From: Acidimicrobiales bacterium
Lineage (GTDB): Bacteria > Actinomycetota > Acidimicrobiia > Acidimicrobiales > JAUJNH01
DNA: 64,000 bases
NCBI GenBank assembly: GCA_030448245.1
Contig: JAUJNH010000008.1
Coordinates: 91,432 to 155,431 of the forward strand
Direction: 5' to 3'
The notes under the pieces are model-generated. The model did not search any database. It saw nothing but the letters and a program-made list of their open reading frames with translations, and was not told where the DNA came from. Below are positions 46,812 to 64,000 of this stretch, in pieces. Each line of letters begins with the position of its first letter. Position 1 is the first letter of the stretch. The position numbers and the translations under genes were made by a program.

Positions 46812-47805
46812 GGGCCAGGAGCGTGGTCCAGGTGGTGCTGGCCGTGGCCGTGCTGGGCGCGGTTGCTGGGTGTCGCGGTGACCGCTCGGATCTGACCGAA
46901 CCGGCGGCGAAGGGGCCGGTGGCGCCGGTTGCCGCGGGACCCGACTTCCGGGACCCGTTCCCGAGTGGTGACCCGAAGCTGGTCGATTCCCTCGGCGGCT
47001 TCTACAGCCAGCTCCTCCGGGCTCTCGATGAGCACGTGACCGCTCCAGCGGCCCCGAGGTCGGGGTTGGAGGGTCTGGCCGTCCCGGCGGTGGTGGCCCG
47101 GGTCGAGGCCGAGCGTCAGGCCAACGTGGCTTTCGGCCAGGGGTTCCAGCGGGTGACGAAGCTGGCCAGCACACCCAGCATCCTCGGGGTCGATGTGGCC
47201 GGACCTCGGGCCACGATCCGCGACTGCACGATCGAACAGCGCACCTACGTGACCGGCCAGACCATCACCTCGTATGTGACCCGCACGGTGCAGGTGGCCA
47301 ACCACGGCGGCACGTTCCGGGCCGCGGCGGTCGAGGTGCCCCACGACGGCACGATCGGCGCCGCCGGGTATGGCTGTGCCACCAGGCGGATGGTTGAGGA
47401 CGCCGAGCGGACGGCGCGCACCATCGTGGACCTGTTCGCCCAGGCCCGCCGGCGGCCGGCGGCCGGTTTCCCGGCCGCCCTGCGGTCACCGAGGGGGCGC
47501 TTCAGAAGGAGCTGCAGGAGTCGCTGGCCAAGCAGGCGGCCAGGGGGCTGGTCATCCTGTCGCCGGCGGAGGTCACCATCAAGGTGCTGGGCTTGGACCC
47601 CCAGCTGCTCGGCACCATCGCGGTGGCGTCGGTCTGTGTGACCTACCCGCAGGGCTTGGCCACCGAGGCCGCAGCCGGTGGGGGCCGGCGGGAGTTCCTG
47701 CCTCCTGGCAGCCAGAGCCGGGTTGACTACGGCGTCCGGGTCGAACCCGGTGAGGACCCGGTCGGGATGAAGATCGTGTCCGAGGAGCTGCAGGCGTCAT
47801 GCTGA
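46808..47805 (+). CDS. Putative lipoprotein between pilus and toxin genes (one apparent frameshift)
   Basis: ATG 46808 encodes a lipoprotein signal (VVQVVLAVAVLGAVAGCRGD, lipobox Cys about residue 22) and an exported domain with IRDCTIEQRTYVTGQTITSYVTRTVQV. After RRRPAAGF the frame is lost. One extra C at 47470-47472 restores PGRPAVTEGALQKELQESLAKQ..KVLGLDPQLLGTIAVASVCVTYP..VSEELQASC, total 332 residues. The TGA overlaps the toxin ATG by seven bases. Family unrecognised. Its invariant place suggests a role in presenting or anchoring the toxin. Confidence 0.78.
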
Positions 47806-49225
47806 GCGGACGGTGCTCGACGCGGCGGCGGTGGGTGGCGGTGGTGGTTGCGGTGGTGGTGTTGGTGCCGTTGCTGGTGGTGGTGCCGGCCGGGGCGGGG
47901 GTGGGGCGGGTGGTGGTGGGGTCGGCGTGTGATGGGTCGGGTGATGGGGTGGCGTCGGGTGTGGTGGAGGAGGTGGTGTCCAGCGGGGCTGATCGGGCGG
48001 CTCGGGGGTTGGCGGAGGATGCGGGGGTGGTGTTGGCGCCGGCCCGGGCGGCGTGGCGGTGGCGGGTGCCGGTGTGTGTGGAGGTGGCCGATGACGGGGA
48101 TCCGGTGACGGTGGACCGGCGGGTGCGGGCGGTGGGCCCGCCGGTGGAGGAGCTGAACCCGGCGGCGGCCGCCTGGGAGCGGGCGGCGTTGGGCAAGGCG
48201 TTGGGTTCGTTGCGCCCCCGGTACTACCGGCCGGCGCCGTGGACCTCGCCGCGTGTCGACGGGGTGCAGGTGGTGGGGTTGGAGACGTGGTTGGCGGTGG
48301 ACCCCAAGGTGTGGGAGCCGTTCACCCAAACGTCGCGGGACGGGGAGGTGGAGGTGTCGGCCAGGGCGACGCCCCGGCGGGTGGTGTGGGAGTTCTCCGA
48401 CGGGGTGGTGGAGGTGTGTGAGGGGCCGGGGGTGCAGTGGTCGCCGGGGGCGGCCGGCCCGGCGCCGTGCGGCCGGGACTTCGCCTCGACCACCGCGGGG
48501 GAACCGCCGATGGTGCTGCAGGTCCGGTTGGAGTACGAGGTGGAGTGGAAGTCGACGATCGGCGGGTCGGGGTCGGTGGCCGAGCGGGGTGAGCCGTTCC
48601 GGGCTGAGCTGGTGGTCGGTGAGGTGCAGGCCTATCTGACCGACGGGCTGCGCCGGACGCCGCCGGCGCTGGACCCGTTGCCGCTGCCCGAGTCGACCCA
48701 GCCGATCAACGACAAGGACTGCGACTGGTCCAGCTTTTGGACTGCTCACCGAAGGACATCCTCGGCGCGGCGAAGGACGCCGCCCGGGAGGCGTGGGAGA
48801 CGGTCCGGGCGTCGGTGGTGGTGGCGGCGAAGCAGGTGTGGGAGTTCTTGAAGGGGTGCGCGGCGTTCGTGGGTGAGGTGTTCGGGAGCGTGGGGGAGAT
48901 GGTGACCCAGCTGGGGCAGCTGGCCGCCGACCCGCAGAAGTTTGTCGATGAGAAGCTGCAGCTGGCCCGGACGGTGAAGGCCGCAGTCAGCGAGGACGCC
49001 GAGGCCTTTGCCATCGAGGTCCTGGGCGGCATGGTCGACCGTGACCTGTTCAACCAGAACAAGGCGAAGTGGGCAGGCAAGCTGGCCTGCGAGGTGGCCG
49101 TCACCGTCCTCACCGGAGGGGTCGGCGGCGTCGGAGGACGCTTCGCCAAGCAGTTCGCCGACATGAACAAGTTCCTGCGCACCATCGACGACTGGCTCAG
49201 CGGCCGCCGCAACGGCAACAACGGC
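47796..49225 (+). repeat. Direct repeat, copy 1 (toxin N-terminal and pretoxin region)
   Basis: About 1.43 kb from the toxin start codon to the RRNGNNGNDPD linker is repeated at 52718-54165 in the same orientation with high identity. Differences are scattered substitutions and single-base indels. Divergence starts sharply at the Hint domain, and the tips are unrelated, as expected for tip swapping by homologous recombination. Confidence 0.9.
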
Positions 49226-50026
49226 AACGACCCCGACAGCGACGGCACTCCAGGGACGTGCCCGGCCCGGAGCTTCGGGGCGGCCACACCGGTGCTGATG
49301 GCGAACGGCGAGCGGAAGCCGATCGCGCAGGTGCAGGTCGGCGACCTGGTCCTGGCCACCGATCCGCGGGTGGGCGGAACGACGAGCGCCCGTGTGGCGT
49401 CCACGTTGCCTCACGTTGACTCGCTCGTCACTCTGACGACGTCGGCGGGCGAGGTCGTGACCACCGAGGACCACTTGTACTGGGACCTGACGGAACGACG
49501 GTGGCAGGAGGTGCAGGCGCTCCAGGTCGGTGACCGCCTTCTCGCAGCCGACGGCGACCTGGTTGTGGTTGGCGGGATCGACTGGGCGACGGTCCAGACC
49601 GCTCCGGCCTACGACCTGGAGGTCGCCGATCTGCACAGCTTCTATGTGGGCGTCGGCTCCGAGGACGTGCTGGTCCACAACGAATGCCTCGCCGATCTAC
49701 GGGACTGGCGGAGCCGCCAGTTCCAGTTCGGGAACTCAACCTTCCTGCTCGACAAGTCCGACATGACCCACATCCTCACCAGGCACCACCCGAAGTACTG
49801 GGACGGCTCACTGAAGGACAGGCAGACGTTCTTCGACGAGCGGCTCACCATCGCTGACGTCGAACGGCTCATCGAGGAGGTTGCCAAACGGAATCGTGAC
49901 GAACTGCTCGAGGTGGGGGTCGGAGTCCGCCAAGTCACGGCGACGATCGACGGGATGACCTACGTCCTCGGCGTGGGCGGTGGCCATCTTCGCCAGTTCT
50001 ACCCGCTGCCGCCGGAGGCTCCGTGA
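47799..50026 (+). CDS. Secreted polymorphic toxin with Hint pretoxin domain and EndoU-like tip (one apparent frameshift)
   Basis: One missing G at 48739-48740 (copy 2 has the extra G) joins two ORFs into 742 residues. Order: signal peptide (WVAVVVAVVVLVPLLVVVPAGAG); a domain with RPRYYRPAPWTSPRVDG and VQVRLEYEVEWKSTIGG; helical pretoxin region (FVGEVFGSVGEMVTQLGQLAADPQKF, KWAGKLACEVAVTVLTGG). A Hint autoprocessing domain follows (CPARSFGAATPVLMANGE, VTTEDHLYWDL, SFYVGVGSEDVLVHN). The 110-residue tip (MTHILTRHHPKYW..VTATIDGMTYVLGVGGGHLRQFYP) resembles EndoU-type ribonuclease toxins. It is followed by a coupled immunity candidate. Confidence 0.82.
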
Positions 50027-52421: not shown

Positions 52422-52484
52422 GCTAAGCCGACGGGTGATGAGACGCCGGCTGAGGGTCTACAGATCCGGCCTGATGGGCCAGGA

Positions 52485-52722
52485 TCCGCGACTGCACGAT
52501 CGAGCAGCGCTCCTTCGTAACCGGCCAGACCGTCACCTCGTATGTGACCGAACGGTGCAGGTGGCCTACCACGGCGGCACCTTCCGGGCCGCCACGATCA
52601 GGTGCCCCACGACGGCAGGATCGACGCCCCCAGGTACGGCTGCGCCACCAGGTGGAAGGCCGAGGACGCCGAGCGGACAGTGCGCACCATCCAGGTCGTG
52701 TCCGAGGAGCTGCGGGCGTCAT
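52485..52722 (+). pseudogene. Internal/C-terminal remnant of the lipoprotein gene
   Basis: The DNA matches lipoprotein positions about 47218-47410 (RDCTIEQRSFVTGQTVTSYVT, then frame loss). It then jumps to the gene's last codons (VSEELRASC). The middle is deleted. It still provides the same overlap with the start codon of toxin copy 2. Confidence 0.78.
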
Positions 52723-54165
52723 GCTGAGCGGACGGTGCTCGACGCGGCGGCGGTGGGTGGCGGTGGTGGTTGCGGTTGTGGTGGTGGTGCCGTTGCTGGT
52801 GGTGGTGCCGGTGCCGGCGGGGGCTGTGGTGGGGCGGGTGGTGGTGGGCTCGGGGTGTGATGGGTCGGGTGATGGGGTGCCGGGCGGGGTGGTGGAGGAG
52901 GTGGTCTCCAGCGGGGCTGATCGAGCGGCTCGGGGGTTGGCGGAGGATGCGGGGTTGGTGTTGGCGCCGGCTCGGGCGGCGTGGCGGTGGCGGGTGCCGG
53001 TGTGTGCCGAGGTGGTGGCCGATGATGGTGATCCGGTGACGGTGGACCGGCGGGTGCGGGTGGTGGGCCCGGCGGTGGAGGAGCTGAACCCGGCGGCGGC
53101 CGCCTGGGAGCGTTCGGCGTTGGAGGAGGCGTTGGAGTCGTTGCGCCCCCGGTACTACCGGCCGGCGCCGTGGACCTCGCCGCATGTGGACGGGGTGCAG
53201 GTGGTCGGGTTGGAGACGTGGCTGGCGGTGGACCCCAAGGTGTGGGAGCCGTTCACCCAAACCTCCCGGGACGGGGAGGTGGAGGTGTCGGCCACGGCCA
53301 GGCCGCGGCGGGTGGTGTGGGAGTTCTCCGACGGGGTGGTGGAGGTGTGTGAGGGTCCGGGGGTGCAGTGGTCGCCGGGGCGGTGGGCCCGGCGCCGTGC
53401 GGCCGGGACTTCACTTCGACCACCGCTGGGGGCCGCCGATGGTGTTGCAGGTCCGGTTGGAGTACGAGGTGGGGTGGAAGTCGACGATCGGCGGGTCGGG
53501 GTTGGTGGCCGAGCGGGGTGAGCCGTTCCGGGCTGAGCTGGTGGTCGGTGAGGTGCAGGCCTAGCTGACCGACGGGCTGCGGGGGCCGCCGCCGGCGCTG
53601 GAACCGTTGCCGCTGCCCGAGTCGACTCAGCCGATGAACGACAAGGACTGCGGTGGGTCCAGCTTCTGGGACTGCTCACCGAAGGACATCCTCGACGCCG
53701 GCAAGGACTTCACCCGGGAGGCTTGGGAGACGGTGCGCGGGTCGCTGGTGGTGGCGGCGACACAGGTGTGGGAGTTCTTGAAGGGGTGCGCGCCGTTCGT
53801 CGGTGAGGTGTTCGGGAGCGTGCGGGAGATGGTGACCCAGCTGGGGCAGCTGGCCGCCGACCCGCAGAAGTTTGTCGATGAGAAGCTGCAGCTGGCCCGC
53901 ACGGTGAAGGCCGCAGTCCGCGAGGACGGCGAGGCCTTTGCCATCGAGGTCCTGGGCGGCATGGTCGACCGTGACCTGTTCAACCAGAACAAGGCGAAGT
54001 GGGCGGGCAAGCTGGCCTGGGAGGTGGCTGTCACCGTCCTCACCGGAGGCGTCGGCGGCGTCGGGGGACGCTTCGCCAAGCAGTTCGCCGACATGAACAA
54101 GTTCCTGCGCACCATCGACGACTGGCTCAGCGGCCGCCGCAACGGCAACAACGGCAACGACCCCG
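52718..54165 (+). repeat. Direct repeat, copy 2
   Basis: Counterpart of 47796-49225, same orientation, about 3.5 kb between the copies. Recombination between them would delete everything from the first toxin tip to the second copy's pretoxin region. This would fuse the intact N-terminus to the second tip. Confidence 0.9.
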
Positions 54166-54893
54166 ACGGCGACAGCGACGCGACAACAGCCGGGGACGTG
54201 CCCGGCCGGCAGCTTCAGCGCCTCCACCCCGGTCCTGCTGGCCGACGGGACCAGGCGACCGATCAGCCAGGTCCGCGTCGGTGACCTGGTGCTGGCCACC
54301 GACCCGACAACCGGGACCACCGGCGCCCGGGTCGTGCTGGCCACCTCCCCCACATCGACGCCCTCCTCACCCTGCGGACCAGCGCCGGCGGCATCGTCAC
54401 CACCGAAGACCACAAGTACTGGAACGCCACCGACCGCAGCTGGCAAGAATCCCAGCACCTCGACCCCGGCGACCGGCTCCACGAACCCGGAGGTGCCACC
54501 GTCGTCGTCAAGGGCCTCGACTGGTCAACCCTCCACACCGACGCCCCCTACGACCTCCCCATCGCCCACCTGCACAGCTACTACGTCGCAGCCGGCGACC
54601 AGAACGTGCTGGTCCACAACTGCGGGGATATGCTCGGCGCGAACTGGACGAAGGTTACGAGCAAGACGCTCCTGAACCGGCCCGATTACCGCATCGACGT
54701 CGAGAATCCCGCTCCCGGAAGTCGGCCAGGACAGTTCCACCTCCAGGATTCGGCCGGCGGTAAGTACCTGTATGACTTCGAAGCCGGGCAGTTCCCGGGC
54801 CTTCCGAGAAGTCTCCAGAAGCAAATCGAGAACGACTCGGCAGTCGGTCGAGCGATCGCCACTGGTCGCCGCTACCTCGGGCTGGATCCCTGA
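52721..54893 (+). pseudogene. Second Hint-toxin gene with a different tip; several lesions
   Basis: From ATG 52721 it repeats copy 1 up to the GNNGNDPD linker, then has its own Hint sequence (CPAGSFSASTPVLLADGTRR, SYYVAAGDQNVLVHN). The new 90-residue tip is NRPDYRIDVENPAPGSRPGQFHLQDSAGGKYLYD. As sequenced it has frame breaks near 53383, 53435, 54185 and 54350 plus an in-frame TAG at 53562-53564 where copy 1 has TAT (Tyr). The indels sum to a restorable frame of 724 codons. The TAG cannot be explained by homopolymer error. Probably inactive, possibly a reservoir of the tip. Confidence 0.8.
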
Positions 54894-61397: not shown

Positions 61398-62024
61398 CTA
61401 CATCTGGCCGTGGCGAACCGGACCGGCAGGTTCATAGGTGCCGAGGACGATGCCGAGATCGGTAACGGTGAGGTCGACAGGGCGCACCGTCGCCGGGAGG
61501 AGGCCGTCGTTGAACAAGCGGCGGCCGGAGCCGAGCACCAGCGGAAAGGTCATCAGGCGGAAGCGGTTGACGAGCTCGTGCTGCAACAGCGTCTGCAGCA
61601 GGTTGCTGCTTCCCCAGATCTGCAGCTCGTCGCCGGGTTCGTCCTTCAGTGCCTGCACCGCTGCGACGACATCGCCGGCCACGAGGCGAGCGGTGTCGGG
61701 GTGCTTGCCGCGCCACGTGGCATCGGCCTCGCTGAGCGAGTTGGACACGACGTACTTGGGCAGCGAGTTGATTGACGTGGCGACGGGGTTGGCGGGGGCG
61801 GTCTGATCAGGCCAGTAGCCGCGGAAGATGTCGAACGTCCGGCGACCGAACAGGAACGCGCTGGCGTGGCTGTTGAGCTCGGTGACGAACTCGCCGACGG
61901 CCGGGTCGGGGAACAGGGCCTGCCAGCCGCCGTGGGTGAAGGTGCCGCTCGGATCTTCCTCGGGTCCGCCGGGCGCCTGCATCACGCCGTCGAGGGTCAG
62001 GAACGTCTGAACGGTGAGCTTCAT
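61398..62024 (-). CDS. Dihydrofolate reductase family (RibD C-terminal-like) protein
   Basis: From ATG 62024 the protein is 208 residues: MKLTVQTFLTLDGVMQAPGGPEED, then SAFLFGRRTFDIFRGYW, PKYVVSNSLSEADATW, DELQIWGSSNLLQTLLQ and FPLVLGSGRRLFNDG. This is the fold of the DHFR/RibD family that uses NADPH. True substrate is unknown; the folate motif set of FolA is absent. It abuts the integrase remnant. Confidence 0.9.
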   Translation of the reverse strand: MKLTVQTFLTLDGVMQAPGGPEEDPSGTFTHGGWQALFPDPAVGEFVTELNSHASAFLFGRRTFDIFRGYWPDQTAPANPVATSINSLPKYVVSNSLSEADATWRGKHPDTARLVAGDVVAAVQALKDEPGDELQIWGSSNLLQTLLQHELVNRFRLMTFPLVLGSGRRLFNDGLLPATVRPVDLTVTDLGIVLGTYEPAGPVRHGQM

Positions 62025-62046
62025 GGCAAGGCAGACGGAGCCACGC

Positions 62047-62310
62047 ACTGATTCTGAGCGCGTCAGGTCCGATCGCCAGCTGACAATGCGCCCCGGTCGC
62101 CTTCAGCCGGCTGTACCAGCGGTCGAGGTCCTCCGGCCGGAGCCGGCTCAGCTTCAACTGCCCGATGTCACCGGTGAAGTGGTTGTGGATGAAGCCCTTG
62201 TACGTCATCCGCCTCGACGCTTCGGCGGGCCCGCCCAGCTCGAGCCACCGGTCGATCAGCTCGTCGAGGGTGGCGTCGGCGGCCAGACCTCCCTGAGGCG
62301 GGGGGTGGAA
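62047..62310 (-). pseudogene. Tyrosine-integrase remnant (core-binding domain only)
   Basis: ATLDELIDRWLELGGPAEASRRMTYKGFIHNHFTGDIGQLKLSRLRPEDLDRWYSRLKATGAHC matches the N-terminal SAM-like domain of phage/ICE integrases. The catalytic domain with the R-H-R-Y residues is missing, replaced by the DHFR-like gene. Together with the tRNA scar next to it, this marks an old integration event. Confidence 0.75.
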
Positions 62311-62364
62311 CCAGGGTAGGGACCGGGATCTCGAGCGGAGCCCCCTGCAGTGCCCTGACCTTGC

Positions 62365-62411
62365 TGGCAGCCCCAACGGAATTCGAACCCGTGCCTCCAC
62401 CTTGAGAGGGC
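62365..62411 (-). other. 3' tRNA fragment, probable attachment-site scar (tRNA-Glu-like)
   Basis: Read on the minus strand: CCTCTCAAGGTGGAGG, then T-arm ACGGGTTCGAATTCCGT, acceptor TGGGGCT and G-CCA. The anticodon loop CTCTCAA suggests Glu (CUC). The 5' half is absent: bases before the loop cannot pair with GGTGG, and no matching acceptor strand is found within 100 bases upstream. This is the classic att site left by an element that used the tRNA 3' end. Confidence 0.7.
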
Positions 62412-62809
62412 CTCCAGGGGTGTTCAGCGAGTACCAACCGTTGCCAAACAGCCCGGAATCATTGGGCTTCCGGTCCGCCCCGTCCCGCCTGATGTTGCCC
62501 GATGCCGTCTGGTTGGGTGTAACGAGGGTGTAACGACGTGTCCGCCAAGGCCTGCTGGCTCTACTGGCGAGCGGTCCGCTGAGGTTCAAGTGCTGCCACT
62601 GCTTCCGCGCGCCACACCCACCTGGATCACAACGGAACCAAGGCGCAAGTAGACGACGTAGGTTGTGCCACCGCCGCCGGCTACCCGAAAAGCTACCGAG
62701 CTGGGCGGTGCCGCCGTCGTCGCCGCCAGTTGGTGGGCTTCTCCGGCGGCGGCCTCGGCCTCAGGGCTCGAGCTCGCCTGAGGCCATCAGACGGACCAAC
62801 CTGGTGGGC
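62412..62809 (+). other. Intergenic region between att-like scar and membrane gene
   Basis: No supported gene. The minus frame here (SGLFGNGWYSLNTPGG) merely reads into the tRNA fragment. It includes a probable promoter zone for the membrane protein/kptA pair, but no clear promoter was recognised. Confidence 0.35.
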
Positions 62810-63178
62810 ATGGGCGGCACCACCTCCTGGGCTGGCGAGGGGGAGGCCACCGACGCCTGGGGCCGCCCACCGGCTCCGCACCTGCCGCTTTCCGGCCAGC
62901 GGGGAATGCTGCTCGACCGCGCCGTCCTGGCCATCCTCCGAGGCTTCCTCTTCATCCCCGGCGCCCTGTTCGCCCTGGTGCTCAGCGGAAACCTGGCCTA
63001 CTTCGGGGAGAACATGGTGTGGCTCCTTCTGCAGCTCGCCATGGTGCCGGCATCGGTCGTCGGCTGGGTGCAGGCTTCCCGGGGCAAGGCCGGCGACCGC
63101 TGGACGATCGGGTACCTGTTCGCCTGGGGCGTGCTGCTCACCGTCGTGGCACCGATCGCCAACCTGCTCGACTCATGA
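62810..63178 (+). CDS. Small membrane protein coupled to kptA
   Basis: ATG 62810 gives 122 residues. A polar N-terminus is followed by hydrophobic segments AVLAILRGFLFIPGALFALVL, MVWLLLQLAMVPASVVGWV and IGYLFAWGVLLTVVAPIANLL. No family recognised. ATG 62909 is an alternative start. Its TGA overlaps the kptA ATG (ATGA). Confidence 0.68.
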   Translation: MGGTTSWAGEGEATDAWGRPPAPHLPLSGQRGMLLDRAVLAILRGFLFIPGALFALVLSGNLAYFGENMVWLLLQLAMVPASVVGWVQASRGKAGDRWTIGYLFAWGVLLTVVAPIANLLDS

Positions 63179-63732
63179 TGGGCACGCCGAATGATGTCCG
63201 GATCAGCAAGCTCCTCGCGCTCGTGCTGCGCCATGAGCCCGAGAAGGTCGGCTTGCGGCTGGACCCGGCGGGATGGGCGGGCATCGATGACCTGCTGGCC
63301 GGCATCGCCGATCACGGGATGGACCTCAGCGAGGACGACCTGCGGCGCATAGTGGCGGAGAGCGACAAGCAGCGGTATGTCATCGACGGCGGACGGCGGG
63401 CAATCCGGGCCAACCAGGGTCACAGCGTCCCCGTCGACCTGGGCCTCGAGCCGCTGGCCCCGCCGGACCAGCTCTACCACGGCACCGCCACCCGGTTCCT
63501 GGACGAGATCCTCACGTCCGGCCTGCGCCCGATGAGCCGCCAGCACGTGCACCTCTCCGCCGATGCCGACACAGCACGGAAGGTGGGCAGCCGCCACGGC
63601 AAGCCATGCGTCCTCACCGTCGCCGCCGCCCGCATGGCCGCGAACGGGTCCGACTTCTATCGCTCCCTCAACGGCGTCTGGCTCACCGCCGCCGTCCCGC
63701 CGGTCTACCTGTCGGCCCCCGAGACAACCTGA
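63175..63732 (+). CDS. kptA: RNA 2'-phosphotransferase (Tpt1/KptA family)
   Basis: The family removes an internal RNA 2'-phosphate, passing it to NAD to form ADP-ribose 1''-2'' cyclic phosphate. The 185-residue protein from ATG 63175 has ISKLLALVLRHEPEKVGLRLDPAGWAGIDDLL, the RNA-binding RYVIDGGRRAIRANQGHS, and the NAD site LYHGTATRFLDEIL..MSRQHVHLSAD. Bacteria lack the tRNA ligase pathway that makes 2'-phosphate splice junctions. The role here is unclear: RNA repair, or NAD-dependent modification. Confidence 0.93.
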   Translation: MMGTPNDVRISKLLALVLRHEPEKVGLRLDPAGWAGIDDLLAGIADHGMDLSEDDLRRIVAESDKQRYVIDGGRRAIRANQGHSVPVDLGLEPLAPPDQLYHGTATRFLDEILTSGLRPMSRQHVHLSADADTARKVGSRHGKPCVLTVAAARMAANGSDFYRSLNGVWLTAAVPPVYLSAPETT

Positions 63733-63873
63733 TCCGGACGCTGGCCGGCGGCATCGTGTACGGCCCATGCGCGGAACACGCTGGTGGCGCCCAGCGGGCG
63801 ACTGCTGGCTGTCCCTCGAGGACGGACGCGGGCCAGCGCGCTGCGAGGACCGCGATCCGCATGGGGCCTCCTC

Positions 63874-64000
63874 ATGGGCGGCAGGTCCTCACGGAGGTCG
63901 GCCCGGACCGCCCAGCGGAACCAGAGGCCACTCCCCAGCGACGCCATCCGGGTGACCCGAGGGCAGCGCACCTGGACGGCACTCGTCGAGGTGAAGACCG
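63874..64000 (+). CDS. Partial gene at the right edge, possible nuclease-like domain
   Basis: The frame from about ATG 63874 reads NQRPLPSDAIRVTRGQRTWTALVEVKT into the window end. A strand ending W-x-A-L-V-E-V-K resembles the ExK strand of PD-(D/E)XK nucleases. With about 40 residues visible this is a guess; the start is uncertain. Confidence 0.3.
   Translation, partial: MGGRSSRRSARTAQRNQRPLPSDAIRVTRGQRTWTALVEVKT

Follow-up and report, generated by a model that had tools for sequence, protein, structure and literature searches.

The window, the whole stretch of DNA analysed here, is 64,000 nt long and corresponds to C6:91432-155431 of a genome assembled into 22 contigs (3.26 Mb). Its right end is also the end of contig C6. 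Near this end lies the 3' part of a tRNA gene, with a broken integrase gene to its left and a pair of short repeats to its right. The features are:

61398-62048, minus strand: RibD_C/dihydrofolate-reductase-like gene (PF01872, E=9.8e-25), a neighbour that abuts the integrase relic
62097-62299, minus strand: integrase pseudogene relic, core-binding domain only (PF14659 Phage_int_SAM_3)
62300-62319, minus strand: degenerate P-arm repeat pair CTACCCTGGTTCCACCCCCC, putatively from an older element, which aligns with the P arm on contig C22 GTTACACCCTGGTTACACCCTCC
62365-62411, minus strand: half tRNA, which covers the 3' part of tRNA-Glu(CUC), anticodon loop through CCA, and is very likely a displaced core (attR)
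62412-64000, minus strand: probable distal end of an integrated element, cut by the contig end at 64000 and placed by the polarity of the half tRNA and the P' arm
62515-62536, minus strand: putative P' arm, paired arm-type sites TCGTTACACCCTCGTTACACCC with an 11-bp period
62663-63178, plus strand: small membrane protein, probable element cargo
63169-63732, plus strand: KptA/Tpt1-type RNA 2'-phosphotransferase (PF01885, E=1.7e-49), probable element cargo at the distal end

The half tRNA reads GCCCTCTCAAGGTGGAGGCACGGGTTCGAATTCCGTTGGGGCTGCCA on the minus strand. It differs from the intact tRNA-Glu(CUC) at G000:C22:251412-251487 by 1 mismatch over 46 nt, a C to T change in the T-stem of the displaced copy, and the homology begins sharply at the anticodon loop (62410). 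The chance expectation for such a match is nil (100 shuffles gave 0 matches when up to 3 mismatches were allowed). ARAGORN found no complete tRNA in the 64-kb window, and the Rfam tRNA model scores the half tRNA at 16.3 bits with a cut-off of 29 bits. We ruled out a full tRNA with an unusual 5' half because the Rfam alignment requires a 56-base insert and still scores below the cut-off. A half tRNA beside a broken integrase is a known kind of arrangement. The first-pass annotation had described a half tRNA without its 5' part, which it is, and had taken it for an attachment-site scar, which is supported by an intact tRNA-Glu(CUC) elsewhere in the genome with an integrase directly downstream.

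The genome has a single intact tRNA-Glu(CUC) gene and a single 3' part of it. The intact gene on C22 shares the 3' part and fits the other att site that had been predicted for it; reading the shared 3' part as the recombination core is supported. On C22 the intact tRNA is followed by a 107 bp gap, the integrase IntA, an HTH_17 protein, a TrwC/MOBF relaxase-helicase and then the contig end, 8 kb past the tRNA. The two larger genes are:

L039:7592-8728 (C22): IntA, an intact tyrosine integrase of 378 aa (PF00589, 7.9e-21; PF14659, 1e-5)
C22:254257-256953: TrwC/MOBF relaxase-helicase of 898 aa (E 7.7e-81)

IntA has both the core-binding and the catalytic domain and adjoins the core. Its closest relatives in the order, at 57–59% identity, are found in G108 (two copies), G004 and G140, and all are directly downstream of a tRNA-Glu, either CUC or UUC. 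The HTH_17 (helix-turn-helix) protein is a candidate excisionase with a profile score just under the family cut-off. Provided that the C22 tail is part of the element, the relaxase lies inside it, as in an ICE or IME. The element would be integrative and probably mobilizable or conjugative. Of the AICE-type proteins that would stand in for a relaxase, an FtsK-like Tra and a Rep, we saw neither on the 8 kb of the C22 tail. We located no type IV secretion (T4SS) or transfer genes on C22 or C6, and the middle of the element lies on neither contig.

Between tRNA-Glu and IntA on C22, 56 nt past the CCA and in the tRNA orientation, is the repeat pair GTTACACCC-nn-GTTACACC with 11-bp spacing. With at most 1 mismatch this pair is found in only two places in the 3.26-Mb genome, and the form GTTACACCCNNGTTACACC occurs exactly twice, once per proposed element end and in the same orientation. 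A reversed-pattern control gave 0 occurrences. The second place is the P' arm at 62515-62536. Read in the tRNA orientation, it lies between 126 and 105 nt upstream of the core, to the right of the half tRNA, and no other 9-mer in the window is repeated with a period of 11. By analogy with known attachment sites, the pairs are best read as putative arm-type integrase sites. They would then flank the core on both sides, as expected for a tRNA-targeting tyrosine-recombinase element. IntA would bind core-type sites in the tRNA 3' part, while its N-terminal domain would bind the arm-type pairs on either side, in which GTTACACCC recurs at 11 bp. The arm repeats here read ACACC, whereas the closest tRNA-Glu integrases have ACAGCC in theirs. 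Because both proposed ends carry the local ACACC version, the right end of the window is tied to IntA.

The 11-bp period is also seen more widely. Of the 26 related integrases that adjoin a tRNA, 16 show a perfect 8-mer repeat with a period of exactly 11 in the gap between tRNA and integrase, where mononucleotide shuffles give an expected count of 0.07, and none of the gaps has a perfect 8-mer repeat at periods 8, 9 or 13–20. Among these IntA homologs next to tRNAs (L121-L150), the repeated sequence is specific to each integrase, and such integrase-specific arm repeats are a possible barcode for pairing element ends.

An element in the 3' part of a tRNA leaves that 3' part at its far end, with the missing 5' half facing the element. 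Here the missing half faces right, so the element lies to the right of 62411. The P' arm pair is on the right as well, which settles the side independently of the tRNA polarity. The same anatomy occurs at other tRNA-Glu elements in the order (see below). Taken together, these lines of evidence lead us to read 62365-62411 as the distal attR of the C22 element, integrated in tRNA-Glu(CUC); as a whole this is the best explanation and we consider it very likely. Integration would have left a complete tRNA on C22, beside the integrase, and shifted the earlier 3' part to the opposite end of the element. The element would span C22:251.5 kb to the end of C22, then an assembly gap, then the window from 64000 down to 62412. 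Both contigs end within the proposed element, and a comparison of the C22 and C6 ends gave no overlap and no shared repeat. The intact tRNA and the 3' part would be in direct orientation, a point that depends on C22 and C6 being joined in the proposed way.

To the left of the core, the integrase relic has a match to PF14659 (E=5.6e-4) that falls slightly short of the family cut-off. Its nucleotide identity to IntA is 91% over 205 bp (codons ~59-126). Its start is gone (a 198-bp deletion precedes it), it has two 1-bp frameshifts, and the whole catalytic domain is missing. The truncated core-binding domain that the first-pass annotation had named is real at 62097-62299, but the reading frame to 62047 continues past the homologous part into sequence upstream of the RibD_C gene. 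That gene has 82% nucleotide identity to G002:C1:2845463-2846141, and the matching block starts at 62076. As a separate observation, the other genes are far less alike between this genome and G002, which is from another family, and a recent transfer of 61398-62076 is likely.

Judging from its sequence, the relic together with the decayed P arm would be what is left of an earlier, related element that occupied this site. A second att arm and integrase lie directly beyond the attR of the first element, the layout of tandem accretion. The C22 element would have entered a site already occupied by a relative, of which a decayed P arm and a core-binding-domain fragment are left. Since the relic shows that an older related element once reached left, part of the lower-GC region at 47-62 kb may descend from it. 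We did not find the outer end of the older element, and that boundary is not preserved. The region also contains a duplicated block (47208-49681 and 52476-54620, 87% nucleotide identity); its left copy has a pretoxin HINT domain protein and its right copy is split into several frames.

The nearest relatives compared belong to other families of the order. We found no uninfected genome with an empty site at the species or family level, and the downstream sides of these relatives vary too much to be compared cleanly. The same anatomy does recur in independent cases. In G108, contig C102 (tRNA and integrase) pairs with C139 (half tRNA with 70 identical nt and a P' pair at -123), and C37 pairs with C115, where the repeat period at the far end is 12. 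The closed genome G002 has the tRNA at 3760513 and the half at 3657333 on one contig, about 103 kb apart, with cognate TGTGTCCC pairs at both element ends. At its far end is an integrase-like ORF, named from position and N-terminus only, and beyond the attR core there is another, different arm pair that resembles the tandem layout here. The half copies in G043 and G019 have both ends on one contig and no clear matching arm pairs, and we do not count them among the supporting cases. We ruled out G004:C205 as the far end of the element on G004:C1, as it has its own integrase on that side. G049:C12:16912-19183 (L112) has two complete tRNA-Glu(CUC) genes 2.2 kb apart, whose 3' parts differ by one mismatch.

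The part of C22 that precedes the tRNA is collinear with genomes from other families (G003, G011). On the downstream side, the sole clear ortholog that C6 shares with G003 and G011 is MsrA. Its orientation matches, and in these two genomes it is within 43 kb downstream of tRNA-Glu(CUC), while in most other relatives it is elsewhere. PEP carboxylase gave no signal of synteny with the tRNA, the gene being scattered or absent. We dropped Lon/PPK2 near tRNA-Glu in G108:C102 as synteny support, since order and orientation differ from the window.

The scar had at first been taken as a possible right edge of an element at about 50.5-62.4 kb carrying toxin-like cassettes. The integrase relic does point left from the core, and the 47-62 kb stretch is lower both in GC (0.68 vs 0.73) and in GC3. 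However, the tRNA-half polarity and the P' arm at 62515-62536 reverse this geometry. There is no second core (tRNA-Glu 3' copy) anywhere on C6, including left of the scar, and no core bounds 50.5-62.4 kb on the far side. With the integrase dead, the left side can hold only an older remnant, so this is contradicted as the main reading and we find it improbable. An attP-like or dimer junction between two tandem copies of one element, the left one decayed, in place of two separate insertions, has somewhat more in its favor: the layout P'-core-P-int is exactly that of an attP, and the relic is close to IntA. Yet the 9% divergence, the indels and the decayed arm are more than a recent duplication should show. 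We regard this reading as unlikely, and what sets it apart from the best explanation is chiefly the history it implies.

The assembly lacks the middle of the element, which leaves room for the distal end to belong to a third element at the same tRNA instead of the C22 element. Against this, the arm repeats match the C22 version (ACACC) and not the ACAGCC of other tRNA-Glu integrases, and the genome has one integrase only of this specificity; we give this little credence. A degraded tRNA gene or a chimeric assembly with no mobile element is the least probable of these readings, and we think it highly improbable. The assembly is fragmented and a contig end is 1.6 kb away, but the boundary is sharp at the anticodon loop, a cognate arm pair sits at the expected distance and contradicts this reading, and the same structure is found in unrelated assemblies, including a closed genome.

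Two actinobacterial elements on one tRNA have been documented, namely Fean5518/Fean5534 on tRNA-Lys and Sav3708/Sav3728 on tRNA-Arg (PMC3218068). These ICEs are like the arrangement here in having a tyrosine integrase by the tRNA 3' end, a displaced 3' part as the far att, and two stacked elements (PMC3218068). They differ in that here we find a MOBF/TrwC relaxase, tRNA-Glu(CUC) and an Acidimicrobiia-type genome, and of the second element just a remnant is left. Stacking and decay at one att site are also seen in ICESt1-related elements (Pavlovic et al. 2004), as far as they are described in PMC3218068; these are a Firmicutes ICE family, and the likeness to the element here is one of arrangement. 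In the attP of cluster J mycobacteriophages (tRNA-Leu), arm-site pairs flank both sides and the core starts in the anticodon loop (PMC3706429). The core start and the direct-repeat arm-type pairs on both sides are shared with our locus. In contrast, those are phages, with repeats of about 10 bp and another sequence, and their attP is 3' of int whereas here it is 5' of int (PMC3706429).

This genome has other tRNA-linked loci of a similar kind. Near the end of C16 (G000:C16:334952-339914, L191) a tRNA, an integrase and a TrwC relaxase form a second element of the same type, with a relaxase 54% identical to that on C22. At G000:C21:195336-196634 an integrase with 43% identity to IntA comes after a tRNA, making this a third candidate element. 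Two more TrwC-type relaxases are at G000:C4:1986-3845 (contig start) and C3:190309-192723 (3 kb after a tRNA).

For this locus, the corrected geometry places the mobile element on the right-hand side of the scar, and this element does not bound the toxin-cassette region to the left. The element probably links contigs C22 and C6. Arm repeats are a simple, testable means of pairing attL and attR in fragmented genomes. We suggest, tentatively and with more doubt than confidence, that a large and little-described family of tRNA-targeted elements with relaxases exists in Acidimicrobiia-type genomes, that the integrases of this family read integrase-specific arm pairs at a strict 11-bp period, and that these pairs may serve as a barcode for matching element ends across broken assemblies.
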